From: Gammaproteobacteria bacterium
GTDB lineage: Bacteria; Pseudomonadota; Gammaproteobacteria; Enterobacterales; Psychrobiaceae
Assembly (NCBI GenBank): GCA_013214945.1
Contig: JABSRT010000002.1
Coordinates: 124,001 to 188,000, forward strand
Direction: 5' to 3'
DNA: 64,000 bases
Shown: positions 27,206 through 30,349 of the stretch, one piece after another
Layout: every line of letters starts with the position of its first letter
How positions within the stretch are numbered: the stretch's first letter is position 1
Notes under the pieces: model-generated
Database searches by the model: none
The model's input: the letters and a program-made list of their open reading frames with translations, nothing else
Told to the model about the DNA's origin: nothing
Made by a program: the position numbers and the translations under genes

Positions 27206-27234
27206 TTGTCAGATTTAACATAGCGAGCTACACT
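27206..27234 (+). promoter_or_regulatory. Candidate promoter of the HPr-rel-A operon
   Basis: TTGTCA at 27206-27211 and TACACT at 27229-27234 with a 17-base spacer, 28 bases before the first ATG, which has its own AAGGA site. The match to sigma-70 is fair (5/6 and 4/6). Confidence 0.5.
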
Positions 27235-27262: not shown

Positions 27263-27976
27263 ATGCTTAATACGGACCCCGGCAAGTCTAGTGACGAAAA
27301 CTTGCGAACTTCAAGCACCATTAATAGTAATAATGCCCCCTCCTGTAAGGCTCAAGTTAGTCGTCGCTCTTTTTTGATCAAAGGTGTAGTAACAGCTCCA
27401 ATATTAGCGAGTTTCGTCAATAAACCGCTATGGGCAGCTGATGATAATTGCATTAACTCTGGCAGTATGTCTGGTAACTTATCTAACCATAATTGTGCCG
27501 CGGTTGCGCGTAGTGCCAGCTGGTGGGCCGATGCATCGGACTCATTATGGAATGGTATAGAATTTAATAGTGCAACTTTACTGCCTTCAAGTAAATTTTA
27601 TCAAGTGATCCAGACAGCACCGTTAAAGCTCAGCGCCAATAACAAATACCATGAAAAAATTAGTGGTGTGTTTGTTTTTCAAAGTTTAGATACTGATAGC
27701 AATAAATTATCTCTACGCGATGTTTTAAGAAACGGTCCACAGGTTGATCGAGAGTTACTAGCAGCGTTACTCAATATTGGTCATCCTGGGATCGCTTATG
27801 ACGGCTACGCAGATCCATTACTTTTGATCCGTGACTATCAGGATGTTAAAGATAATTATCTGATGAGTTTGAATTCTGGTGCCTCGCAAGCGATTTTAAA
27901 TGGGATGTTTGATACTTTTGCTGCAAGTTTAGCTAATATAAATCGAGATTATGACAATTTACCCGGCGTGCCATAA
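27263..27976 (+). CDS. Tat-signal protein of unknown function, first gene of the HPr-rel-A operon
   Basis: The 237-residue protein has a long N-region, then a twin-arginine signal SRRSFLIKG (Arg34-Arg35) with a hydrophobic core (VVTAPILASFV) and a likely cleavage site after PLWA. The mature part begins DDNC and has two cysteines (Cys63, Cys78), then SASWWADASDSLWNGI and a block of short hydrophobic helices; I do not recognise a family. It should be exported folded, perhaps with a cofactor or partner. Its 3' end overlaps the PqqD-like gene by 26 bases, so it belongs functionally to the kinase system that follows. It could be the substrate or a sensor. No function can be assigned. Confidence 0.8.
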   Translation: MLNTDPGKSSDENLRTSSTINSNNAPSCKAQVSRRSFLIKGVVTAPILASFVNKPLWAADDNCINSGSMSGNLSNHNCAAVARSASWWADASDSLWNGIEFNSATLLPSSKFYQVIQTAPLKLSANNKYHEKISGVFVFQSLDTDSNKLSLRDVLRNGPQVDRELLAALLNIGHPGIAYDGYADPLLLIRDYQDVKDNYLMSLNSGASQAILNGMFDTFAASLANINRDYDNLPGVP

Positions 27977-28247
27977 GCACTTGAAGTTTCGGCCTGATAT
28001 TGCAATGCTCTATCATAGCTTTGATGATGGAGTGGTTTTGTTTGATCCGGACTCTTCAAACACGACGCTTTATCACACCATTGTATTGTGGTTAATTGAG
28101 CTAACGGCAACAGATGAGTTTGAGTATGAGCAGGTGCTTAATCGTCTGATTGATGATTATAAAAACGACGACCCGATGGAACTGTCGCAACTATTGGACC
28201 GTACATTAAACTCACTAATGAAGTTAGGATTTGTTCAAAGGATTTGA
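27951..28247 (+). CDS. PqqD-like peptide chaperone of an HPr-rel-A type system
   Basis: The 98-residue protein has the winged-helix pattern of PqqD-like (RiPP recognition element) proteins: FRPDIAMLYHSFDDGVVLFDPDSSNTTLYHTIVLWLIELTA in order, followed by LIDDY and LNSLMKLGFVQ. PqqD-like proteins hold leader peptides of modified peptides, but in this system a peptide partner is not established. ATG 27951 lies inside the upstream gene; a TTG at 27981 would give MKFRPDIA and is also plausible. It is followed by an HprK-related kinase, the arrangement that, from memory, NCBI calls the HPr-rel-A system. Confidence 0.75.
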   Translation: MTIYPACHKHLKFRPDIAMLYHSFDDGVVLFDPDSSNTTLYHTIVLWLIELTATDEFEYEQVLNRLIDDYKNDDPMELSQLLDRTLNSLMKLGFVQRI

Positions 28248-29155
28248 CTCTGATTTTATCAACATATAGCAAAAAGGAATTTTGCCGGCTGGTTAAAACG
28301 ACCGGACTCAATATTAAAATTGGGCCGTTTAATATCAAGCTGACTTCCAATGTTCCGACATTTCTGGACAACTTCTATTTCCTCTATAGCGACTGCGTTA
28401 TAGTGGGTGATGATCAATACATCGATTTTCATATCTGCCTTAAGCCGCCGAGCATTTTTCGGCGCTGGTATCGGCCGCAAGTTAATTTTTTTATAAATGA
28501 ATTTCGTCCCTTTAAACCCTTACCTATCGACCAAACCATGGCTTTTTTTGAATGGGGCTTAAATTGGACGATTGCCCAGCAAGCATTGCAATATCTTATT
28601 ATTCACTCTGCGGTTGTTGAAAAAGAGGGTAAAGCGATTATTTTACCTGGTATGCCTGGAGCAGGTAAAAGCACGCTTTGTGCGGCATTGGTTCATCATG
28701 GTTGGCGTTTGTTGTCAGACGAGCAGGCGTTGATTAGCCAAGACGCTACTGAAATTGTTCCGCTTGCTCGACCAATTAATCTCAAAAACCAATCAATAGA
28801 AGTGATTAAAGAGTTTTGTCCTGATGCAAAATTTGGCCAAGTGTTTGCACAAACCTCCAAAGGTGATATTTGCCATGTAAAACCACCGGTAAGCGCTATC
28901 GAGCAAATAGCGGTTAATGCCCAGCCATTTGCAATCGTATTTCCGAGTTACGAGCACGGGCTGGATCAAACTAAGTTGACAACAATGGCTAAAGGGGAGA
29001 CCTTAATTGAACTTATTAACCATTGCTTTAATTATACGATCCTTGGTCTTGATGGTTTCAAACGCTTAAGTACTTTGGTTGAAAATAGTCAGTGTTTTAG
29101 TTTGTCCTACTCGGACTTAAACAGTGCTATTTCGACACTTGACGAGTTGTACTAA
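28244..29155 (+). CDS. HprK-related kinase A
   Basis: The 303-residue protein has a P-loop, GMPGAGKST (136-144), preceded by HSAVVE (His121) and followed by LLSDE (157-161), the layout of the HPr kinase/phosphorylase C-terminal domain; the bacterial HprK signature itself is not fully present. It starts with a non-ATG codon (TTG 28244, overlapping the previous stop; CTG 28250 is an alternative) because no ATG occurs until about residue 99. AAAGGA lies just ahead. The target is unknown; no HPr gene or PTS gene is in the window. Confidence 0.78.
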   Translation: MTLILSTYSKKEFCRLVKTTGLNIKIGPFNIKLTSNVPTFLDNFYFLYSDCVIVGDDQYIDFHICLKPPSIFRRWYRPQVNFFINEFRPFKPLPIDQTMAFFEWGLNWTIAQQALQYLIIHSAVVEKEGKAIILPGMPGAGKSTLCAALVHHGWRLLSDEQALISQDATEIVPLARPINLKNQSIEVIKEFCPDAKFGQVFAQTSKGDICHVKPPVSAIEQIAVNAQPFAIVFPSYEHGLDQTKLTTMAKGETLIELINHCFNYTILGLDGFKRLSTLVENSQCFSLSYSDLNSAISTLDELY

Positions 29156-30264
29156 TGTTATTAGCTGGAATATTTAAGATGGAAAAGTCAATTTTAAATC
29201 GGCTATTGCAAACGCCAATTATAGCTCAGTCATTTTCGGATCCTCAGTGGGATCTGTGTTTGCGTCAAGCACAGGCAGCAAACTTATTAGGGCGATTGAA
29301 TTTTCTGCTGCAACAACACGATAATTTACAATACCTGCCGCAGCGGGCGTTAAATCACCTTGCCGCCGCTGTGCTGCGCAGCAATAAACAGCACCAAGAC
29401 ATCAGGGCCGAAGCTAAACGATTGTCGAGTCACTTATCTGAGCACGGCCTTGAAATAACCTTTTTAAAGGGCGCTGCTTATGTATTAACGGGCATTGCCA
29501 GTCAAGGGCGGATATGTTCAGACATTGATATATTGGTTAAAAAATCTCAATTAAGCCAAGTGGAGCGGCGGTTAGAAGATGTCGGTTGGGCCCCTGAAGC
29601 GGTTAGTGATTATGATAAAAAATATTACCGACAGTGGATGCACGAAATTCCGCCGATGATCCATTTGGGTCGGCAGACTATTTTAGATGTCCATCATAAT
29701 ATCGTGCCATTAACGGCGAAAAAATTACCCAATGCCCACCAATTATTAGAAAGCCGCTGTGCTACCGATGATCAACAAGCACATTATGTGTTATCTCCGA
29801 TGGATATGATTTTACACAGTGCTGTTCATCTGTTTTCTGAAGGGGAACTTGATAAAGGGTTAAGAGATTTAACCGATTTGGATTTATTATTTAAGTACTA
29901 CTTTGATGATCCTGGCTTAGATCATTACCGCAGCAAGCAGCTGTTTGCGCGAGCCCAGCAGCTCAATCTTGAAACCAGTTTGTGTTATGCGCTGCGATAT
30001 TGTCATCAAGTACTTAAAACCGAGTTGCCTGCACACTCTTTAATACAAAACCCGAATAATCCGGTTAAATTATTGATACTCGATTATTGCTATCAACATA
30101 CCTTAGTGCCTTACCATAGTAGTTGCCAAGGATTGCACTTTGAGCTGGCCTGTTTAATTTTGTATTTGCGTAGCCACATCAAAAAAATGCCTTTGAAATT
30201 ACTACTGCCTCACCTCTCGATTAAATGGTGGCAACGCGCAAAAAAACTATTTGTAGTAACTTAA
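29155..30264 (+). CDS. Nucleotidyltransferase-family protein (HPr-rel-A operon)
   Basis: The 369-residue protein has the core of the uncharacterised nucleotidyltransferase family: ITFLKGAAYVLTGIASQGRICSDIDILVKK (about 102-131), with the DxD (Ser-Asp-Ile-Asp) acid pair expected to bind metal, and a helical C-terminal half with MDMILHSAVHLF, as in this family. It begins at ATG 29155, overlapping the kinase stop (TAATG). The family is found beside sugar- and peptide-modification genes; the nucleotide and acceptor are unknown. The gene ends the operon; a two-way terminator follows. Confidence 0.78.
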   Translation: MLLAGIFKMEKSILNRLLQTPIIAQSFSDPQWDLCLRQAQAANLLGRLNFLLQQHDNLQYLPQRALNHLAAAVLRSNKQHQDIRAEAKRLSSHLSEHGLEITFLKGAAYVLTGIASQGRICSDIDILVKKSQLSQVERRLEDVGWAPEAVSDYDKKYYRQWMHEIPPMIHLGRQTILDVHHNIVPLTAKKLPNAHQLLESRCATDDQQAHYVLSPMDMILHSAVHLFSEGELDKGLRDLTDLDLLFKYYFDDPGLDHYRSKQLFARAQQLNLETSLCYALRYCHQVLKTELPAHSLIQNPNNPVKLLILDYCYQHTLVPYHSSCQGLHFELACLILYLRSHIKKMPLKLLLPHLSIKWWQRAKKLFVVT

Positions 30265-30315: not shown

Positions 30316-30349
30316 AAAAAAGGTACTAAGCAATGCTTAATACCTTTTT
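30316..30349. terminator. Bidirectional terminator between the HPr-rel-A operon and metQ
   Basis: AAAAAGGTA-c-TAAGC pairs with GCTTA-a-TACCTTTTT around a three-base loop, with A and T runs on both sides, so it can end transcription from both converging operons. Confidence 0.8.

Follow-up and report, generated by a model that had tools for sequence, protein, structure and literature searches.

A recurring operon that joins a Tat-signal protein to PqqD-like, HprK-related and nucleotidyltransferase-fold proteins, and its association with XrtA/PEP-CTERM systems

The 64,000-nucleotide stretch of contig JABSRT010000002.1 analysed here (positions 124,001 to 188,000 of the forward strand; hereafter, the window) belongs to a gammaproteobacterium of the family Psychrobiaceae (assembly GCA_013214945.1) and contains a compact operon of four genes. 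These encode a protein with a twin-arginine translocation (Tat) signal, a PqqD-like protein, an HprK-related kinase and a nucleotidyltransferase-fold protein, designated below T, P, K and N. All four open reading frames (ORFs) lie on the same strand and overlap by 26 (T/P), 4 (P/K) and 1 (K/N) bases; T-P-K-N thus look translationally coupled. A later ATG is an alternative possible start for P. The four overlapping genes had been proposed in an initial annotation, and ORF calling together with the family matches of P, K and N places them at the same coordinates (Table 1).

Table 1. Features of the T-P-K-N operon, in window coordinates (aa, amino acids; AF2, AlphaFold2).
Feature	Position	Strand	Basis
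T, Tat-signal protein, predicted to be exported, candidate substrate	27263..27976	+	ORF, 237 aa; no Pfam/NCBIfam match; relatives at 78 of the 80 loci found with K
Extended Tat signal of T, residues 33-58, SRRSFLIKGVVTAPILASFVNKPLWA, proposed leader for P	27359..27436	+	profile alignment of T types I and II
Start of the mature part of T, C63-x-x-S66-x-x-x-S70 ... C78; S66 and S70 candidate target serines	27449..27496	+	conservation counts
P, PqqD-like protein of the RRE (RiPP recognition element) type	27951..28247	+	98 aa; TIGR04353, full model, E 1e-6, 29.6 bits (cut-off 35)
K, HprK-related kinase A	28244..29155	+	303 aa, TTG start; TIGR04352, 359.6 bits (cut-off 200)
N, nucleotidyltransferase-fold protein (NTP_transf_5)	29155..30264	+	369 aa; PF14907, 162.8 bits; AF2 model
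Terminator-like stem between N and a metQ-like gene	30317..30349	- (as listed)	15 pairs; weak

The two putative enzymes, K and N, match known families. The match of K to TIGR04352 has an E-value of 9.3e-108, and K is the only match of its kind in the window genome; its residues H121, K142, S143, D159 and E160 are kept in 75 of 75 sequences. N exceeds the PF14907 cut-off of 31.2 bits, and its AF2 model, with a predicted local distance difference test score (pLDDT) of 93.5, has a nucleotidyltransferase fold, the best structural match being MenT1 (E 2.8e-4), followed by ANT(2'')-Ia and LnuA. The SDID motif singled out in the initial annotation corresponds to D123 and D125 of N; these two and a third aspartate, D178, are invariant across the 74 N proteins aligned. 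Equally in agreement with that annotation, a Pfam/NCBIfam scan of six window genes (the four of the operon and the next two upstream, from an ORF list limited to ORFs of at least 60 aa) revealed no HPr or other phosphotransferase system (PTS) protein.

T begins its signal with S33-R34-R35-S-F-L and a subsequent hydrophobic stretch, recognized by eye. Neither the Tat-signal models TIGR01409 and PF10518 nor any other Pfam or NCBIfam model matches the window T. No convincing domain family from these databases was found for 68 T members of type II, the larger of two main types discussed below: four have weak matches to TIGR01409 and one to PF10518, other matches are single and scattered, and the PEP-CTERM model is absent from the matched families. 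The T family is undescribed in Pfam and NCBIfam. Among the window and named loci, mostly of type II, C63 is kept in 70 of 73 T proteins, S66 and S70 in 68 each, C78 in 60 and N171 in 67. The AF2 model of the window T has a mean pLDDT of 73.7 and no convincing structural match (best Foldseek E 0.9; best VIA Z 3.7), a weakness that is no evidence of a new fold.

The gene set is conserved far beyond the window. An alignment of 20 K sequences was searched against named genomes, and the best 80 of 189 candidate stretches encoding relatives were kept as loci. By an initial rule, two arginines and a hydrophobic stretch, T was picked at 74 of 115 loci (the 80 named and 35 others); a profile of these 74 proteins and the window T matched 36 of the 41 loci left out of its building with E-values of 1.1e-8 or better, the match in L018 lying on the opposite strand. 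Once each of the four genes had a profile, T was found at 78 of the 80 named K-found loci, and the two loci without it (L039 and L079) are at contig ends, with fewer than 400 bases before P. Conversely, a K-independent T profile (69 rows) was run over 398 genomes drawn from the phylum and had matches in 57, of which 41 lay within 3 kb of a K-profile match. These counts from both directions rule out a chance neighbourhood. The initial annotation had made its proposal depend in part on conservation of the Tat gene with the other three, and such conservation is what was found, which gives its interpretation partial support: T belongs to a recurring T-P-K-N set and is no accident of the window genome.

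T-P-K-N is the commonest gene order. T follows N in L055, L071 and L098; two T genes occur in L055, L071 and L099, and L108 has two divergent sets, which suggests that a single group of enzymes may act on several cargoes. In L094 the contig ends where N would be expected and N is not seen. The succession of K and a nucleotidyltransferase-family gene is the same in annotated Sphingomonas and Vibrio plasmids. The distribution of K is patchy: it is over the cut-off in 61 of the 398 genomes and has no match in the eight other genomes of the genus. A T-profile match is present in 40 of the 61 K genomes and missing from 21, seven of which have a type I T at the locus that was found by the other profile (L006, L008, L012, L013, L018, L023 and L024). 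From the remaining 14, ten loci were examined, G061, G149, G165 and G189 being left out; at 10 of 11 loci (those ten and the Sphingomonas plasmid L119) a T-like ORF precedes P, with E-values of 0.01 or better in a small ORF set. The alphaproteobacterial loci L119, L155-L157 and L159-L162 encode short T-like proteins with a twin-arginine signal and the C-terminal C-x-x-S of type I.

The signal is the part that the T proteins have in common. The bodies of 114 T proteins group into clusters of 84 and 24 with six singletons, and the type I and type II profiles align solely over the signal and the first cysteine (39 columns, E 1.4e-10). Each of the twin arginines is present in 98%, and the signal ends in a tail of the form P-V-[LI]-L-T-L-x-S-[RG]-P-[AV]-[LMW]-A, conserved at 35-76% per position. 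In the 24 aligned type I proteins, three of which (L077, L100 and L113) group apart in the body clustering, a cysteine near the mature start and the C-terminal C-x-x-S are invariant. In a relative of the same genus that lacks K, an SPGYW-type T body domain was observed as the C-terminal part of a far longer protein (L131, 1-1896), with no Tat signal in the stretch covered.

Further gene arrangements were observed. K and N are fused in a single 706-aa ORF in one genome (G185; L154, 3968-6088). In four genomes (L150-L153, family f39), a divergent N-like gene stands beside a T-like gene, followed by P-like and sub-cut-off K-like genes; the T-like proteins, two of which are encoded in L153, carry a signal of the T kind on a different body, which is cysteine-rich at three of the four loci. 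Two of these cousin cassettes (L150, 1009-5059; L151, 749-4806) have a radical SAM/SPASM-type protein, below the cut-off of every listed model, between the T-like and P-like genes. A radical SAM protein paired with a PqqD-like one typically marks a peptide-modifying system. Both this position and the restriction of the likeness between the two main T types to their signal strengthen the case for T as the target of the enzymes.

Median pairwise identities over 72 loci are 25% for T, 22% for P, 45% for K and 42% for N. The similarity of T bodies follows that of K beyond P and N (partial rank correlation 0.39, with none of 300 permutations as high), and the similarity of T signals weakly follows that of P (0.11, 6 of 300 permutations as high), while the signal-K and body-N values are 0.00 and 0.04. 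These correlations would weakly fit recognition of a leader by P and of a cargo by K; residual phylogeny may contribute.

K is associated with the XrtA/PEP-CTERM exopolysaccharide system, which has been linked to floc formation (PMC9850573). EpsB_2, the glycosyltransferase of this system, is over the cut-off in 80 of the 398 genomes, and EpsB_2 and K occur together in 56 (Fisher p 7e-43), that is, in 56 of 61 genomes with K as compared with 24 of 337 others; counted by genus, the figures are 30 of 32 and 17 of 180 (p 4e-22). Flanking genes of the 80 loci point the same way: gene clusters for PrsT, PrsK, the XrtA export protein, EpsB_2, the XrtA ATPase or a chain-length protein are found at 35 loci, and at least two of them at 24. 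The clusters were named from one scanned representative each, that of the XrtA ATPase scoring 320.1 bits, just below the cut-off of 324.5, and at 57 of the 80 loci the sequence reaches beyond K by more than 5 kb on the upstream side and 4 kb on the downstream side. In the window genome, XrtA, EpsB_2 and PrsK are over the cut-off on contig C4, nine PEP-CTERM matches are present, and the T-P-K-N operon lies on contig C2.

In many relatives, the upstream regions of T carry promoter elements of the kind described for this system. Among 75 operons, made up of the window's own and 74 named ones, TTTACA is the most enriched hexamer, found in 37 versus 6.7 expected. A 17-nucleotide box, [TC]GTC[GA]N6TTTACA, occurs upstream of T in 27 of the 75; its frequency in the rest of the loci would predict 0.46, and shuffling gave at most 1 in 500 shuffles. 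In 21 of the 40 operons with a sigma-54-like site scoring at least 10.7, TTTACA ends 30-95 nucleotides before that site (mean 77, standard deviation 13), as against 0.57 expected; of the 868 other ORFs that served as background, 29 have both motifs, but this set is unfiltered, and some of its members may share the T upstream region. Motif 1 of PEP-CTERM genes has been described as 17 nucleotides ending in TTTACA and separated from a sigma-54 motif 2 by 62.8 nucleotides on average (32-92; PMC1569441). In the window genome, the box is present within 200 nucleotides upstream of an ORF with a PEP-CTERM match at four of eight examined loci, the match at L137 not being at the C-terminus of its ORF.

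Other features around the operon are less informative. The sigma-70-like site at 27206-27234 does not stand out from chance (10 such sites versus 9.6 expected), and the terminator-like stem is weak, because four such stems in the region compare with 3.2 expected from shuffles. An empty-site comparison was fruitless, the metQ-like neighbour having no match in the eight other genomes of the genus. A search of plasmids for lasso-cluster relatives of K or N led nowhere. Two Rhodobacterales plasmids carry a more distant kinase and nucleotidyltransferase pair near polysaccharide genes, with no recognized T or P (L120, 5404-7606; L121, 5512-7636).

Gene order, the conserved T, the common signal with differing bodies, the catalytic residues, the K-N fusion, XrtA co-occurrence and the promoter boxes of many relatives were all computed here. 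With them in mind we propose, at roughly even odds, an operon resembling those for ribosomally synthesized and post-translationally modified peptides (RiPPs), which would make and modify an exported T with the Tat signal as leader, the product serving the XrtA/PEP-CTERM matrix. The Tat signal would double as a leader recognized by P, and P would present T to K. K would then phosphorylate a serine of T, the best candidates being S66 and S70 at the mature start, and N would cap the resulting phosphoserine with a ligand, whether nucleotidyl, glycosyl or of another kind. The finished T would presumably leave the cell through the Tat system and act outside together with the exopolysaccharide matrix of the XrtA/PEP-CTERM system. 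Since the Tat pathway carries proteins that are already folded, T could fold and be completed while still in the cytoplasm. The modification itself is modelled by analogy on published lasso-peptide kinases and PsmN: HprK-type lasso-peptide kinases phosphorylate serine, the PqqD-like BsfB1 speeds this phosphorylation, and the hexose on the phosphoserine depends on PsmN (PMC9266682, PMC8498205, PMC10368454). Both this precedent and the XrtA link go beyond the initial annotation.

Several observations weigh against this proposal. The likeness of K and N to PadeK/BsfK and PsmN is one of gene kind and not of sequence comparison, and P scores below the cut-off of its model. The lasso kinase motif, H ... 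GKS ... D-D (PMC10368454), ends in Asp-Asp, whereas K has Asp-Glu, E160 being kept throughout; and the window T does not end in serine, the site used by PadeK-type kinases (PMC9266682). The T body does not track P (partial correlation -0.11, with 286 of 300 permutations as high), and the signal also tracks N (0.17). Three further loci (L021, L022 and L028) have no T or P beside K, their genomes having a T match on another contig; no T was found at the K locus of L158; and 16 of the 57 T-profile matches are not near K, those in G342, G284 and G171 covering the body part alone. The window operon has no PEP-CTERM box upstream with three or fewer mismatches (best, 8 of 13 positions), and the 24 genomes with EpsB_2 and without K mean that XrtA systems do not need K.

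In some genomes T, P and N are found on separate contigs or in a different arrangement, which would fit T being a partner and not the target. P, K and N could modify another protein of the XrtA system, such as a PEP-CTERM protein or a glycosyltransferase, with T a co-expressed exported matrix or sensor protein; the co-occurrence of K with XrtA genes and the great diversity of T bodies, whose median identity was given above, speak for this. We nevertheless consider it unlikely, given that T is present at 78 of 80 loci, that T body similarity tracks K, that L055 and L071 keep two T genes per P-K-N set, and that a signal common to unlike bodies suggests a recognized element. T might also be a protein primer or anchor, K and N putting a phospho-sugar on it to which the matrix glycan is attached or on which it is grown. 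PsmN is required for the hexose on phosphoserine (PMC9266682), the N model weakly matches the ligand-phosphate transferase FKRP (E above 0.3), and the exopolysaccharide linkage fits as well; however, there is no evidence of a sugar on T, and the XrtA-type EpsB_2 has been described as a lipid-carrier phosphotransferase (PMC9850573), which means that a protein primer is not required. This makes such a role improbable.

A classical regulatory role of K deserves still less weight. K does match the HPr(Ser) kinase/phosphatase model TIGR00679 (E 3.2e-6) and, by profile, HPrK structures (E 3e-5), as a regulator of HPr or an HPr-like protein with incidental neighbours might. Its score, however, is 26.6 bits against a cut-off of 240, on which ground classical HPr/PTS regulation was rejected, and the conserved T-P-K-N set and the K-N fusion leave this reading with very little probability.

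If T is indeed made and modified as a RiPP-like substrate, leader-guided modification of the RiPP type would extend from small peptides to Tat-exported proteins. A broader and more tentative version, which we hold to be possible but somewhat doubtful, is a machinery acting on folded full-size proteins, in which one Tat signal is both the export signal and the RRE-recognized leader, and in which unlike bodies (SPGYW, C-terminal C-x-x-S, or cysteine-rich with radical SAM) would receive a phosphate and its cap while still in the cytoplasm and then be sent to an exopolysaccharide matrix linked to an exosortase, with PrsK-PrsR as the controlling pair in many species. In the open-access literature searched, HPr-rel-A, TIGR04352, TIGR04353 and NTP_transf_5/PF14907 are not mentioned (which is not absence from print), nor are PGYWK-type motifs, and no paper was found there that joins PqqD or HPr kinase with exosortase. 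HPr-rel-A, so far a database name, can now be given a family of exported partners and an XrtA/PEP-CTERM context, together with candidates for the leader and for the serines that are modified.

Among named systems, the closest is HPr-rel-A itself (TIGR04352, HprK_rel_A; TIGR04353, PqqD_rel_X). K is well over the cut-off, a PqqD-like gene precedes it and an NTP_transf_5 gene follows; on the other hand, the named models cover just K and P, and T has no model. The initial annotation had called the operon HPr-rel-A type. The name stands on K and the gene order, but not for strict membership, because P is below the TIGR04353 cut-off. With the SynChlorMet cassette there is a faint similarity (K to ScmC, 34.3 bits; P to ScmD, 14.2 bits; both far below cut-off), and the cousin cassettes L150 and L151, with their radical SAM protein, resemble this and other systems of radical SAM and PqqD proteins that act on peptides, whereas the window T-P-K-N operon has no radical SAM gene. 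Lasso-peptide clusters (paeninodin with PadeK; bsf with BsfK, BsfB1 and BsfN; pseudomycoidin with PsmK and PsmN) likewise encode together a PqqD-like RRE protein, an HprK-like kinase and a nucleotidyltransferase (PMC9266682, PMC8498205, PMC7533575, PMC10368454). The candidate substrate here, however, is a Tat protein of 237 aa and not a short peptide, and the lasso B2 leader peptidase PF13471 has no match in the window genome, on which ground a lasso peptide was rejected. The XrtA/PEP-CTERM system with its PrsK-PrsR/sigma-54 regulon (PMC1569441) differs in that T has a Tat signal and that, in the window genome, the T-P-K-N operon is without the box and sits on a different contig from the XrtA genes, but it shares with the T-P-K-N set their co-occurrence, their adjacency at many loci, and the same kind of 17-nucleotide box and sigma-54-like site upstream of many T operons.

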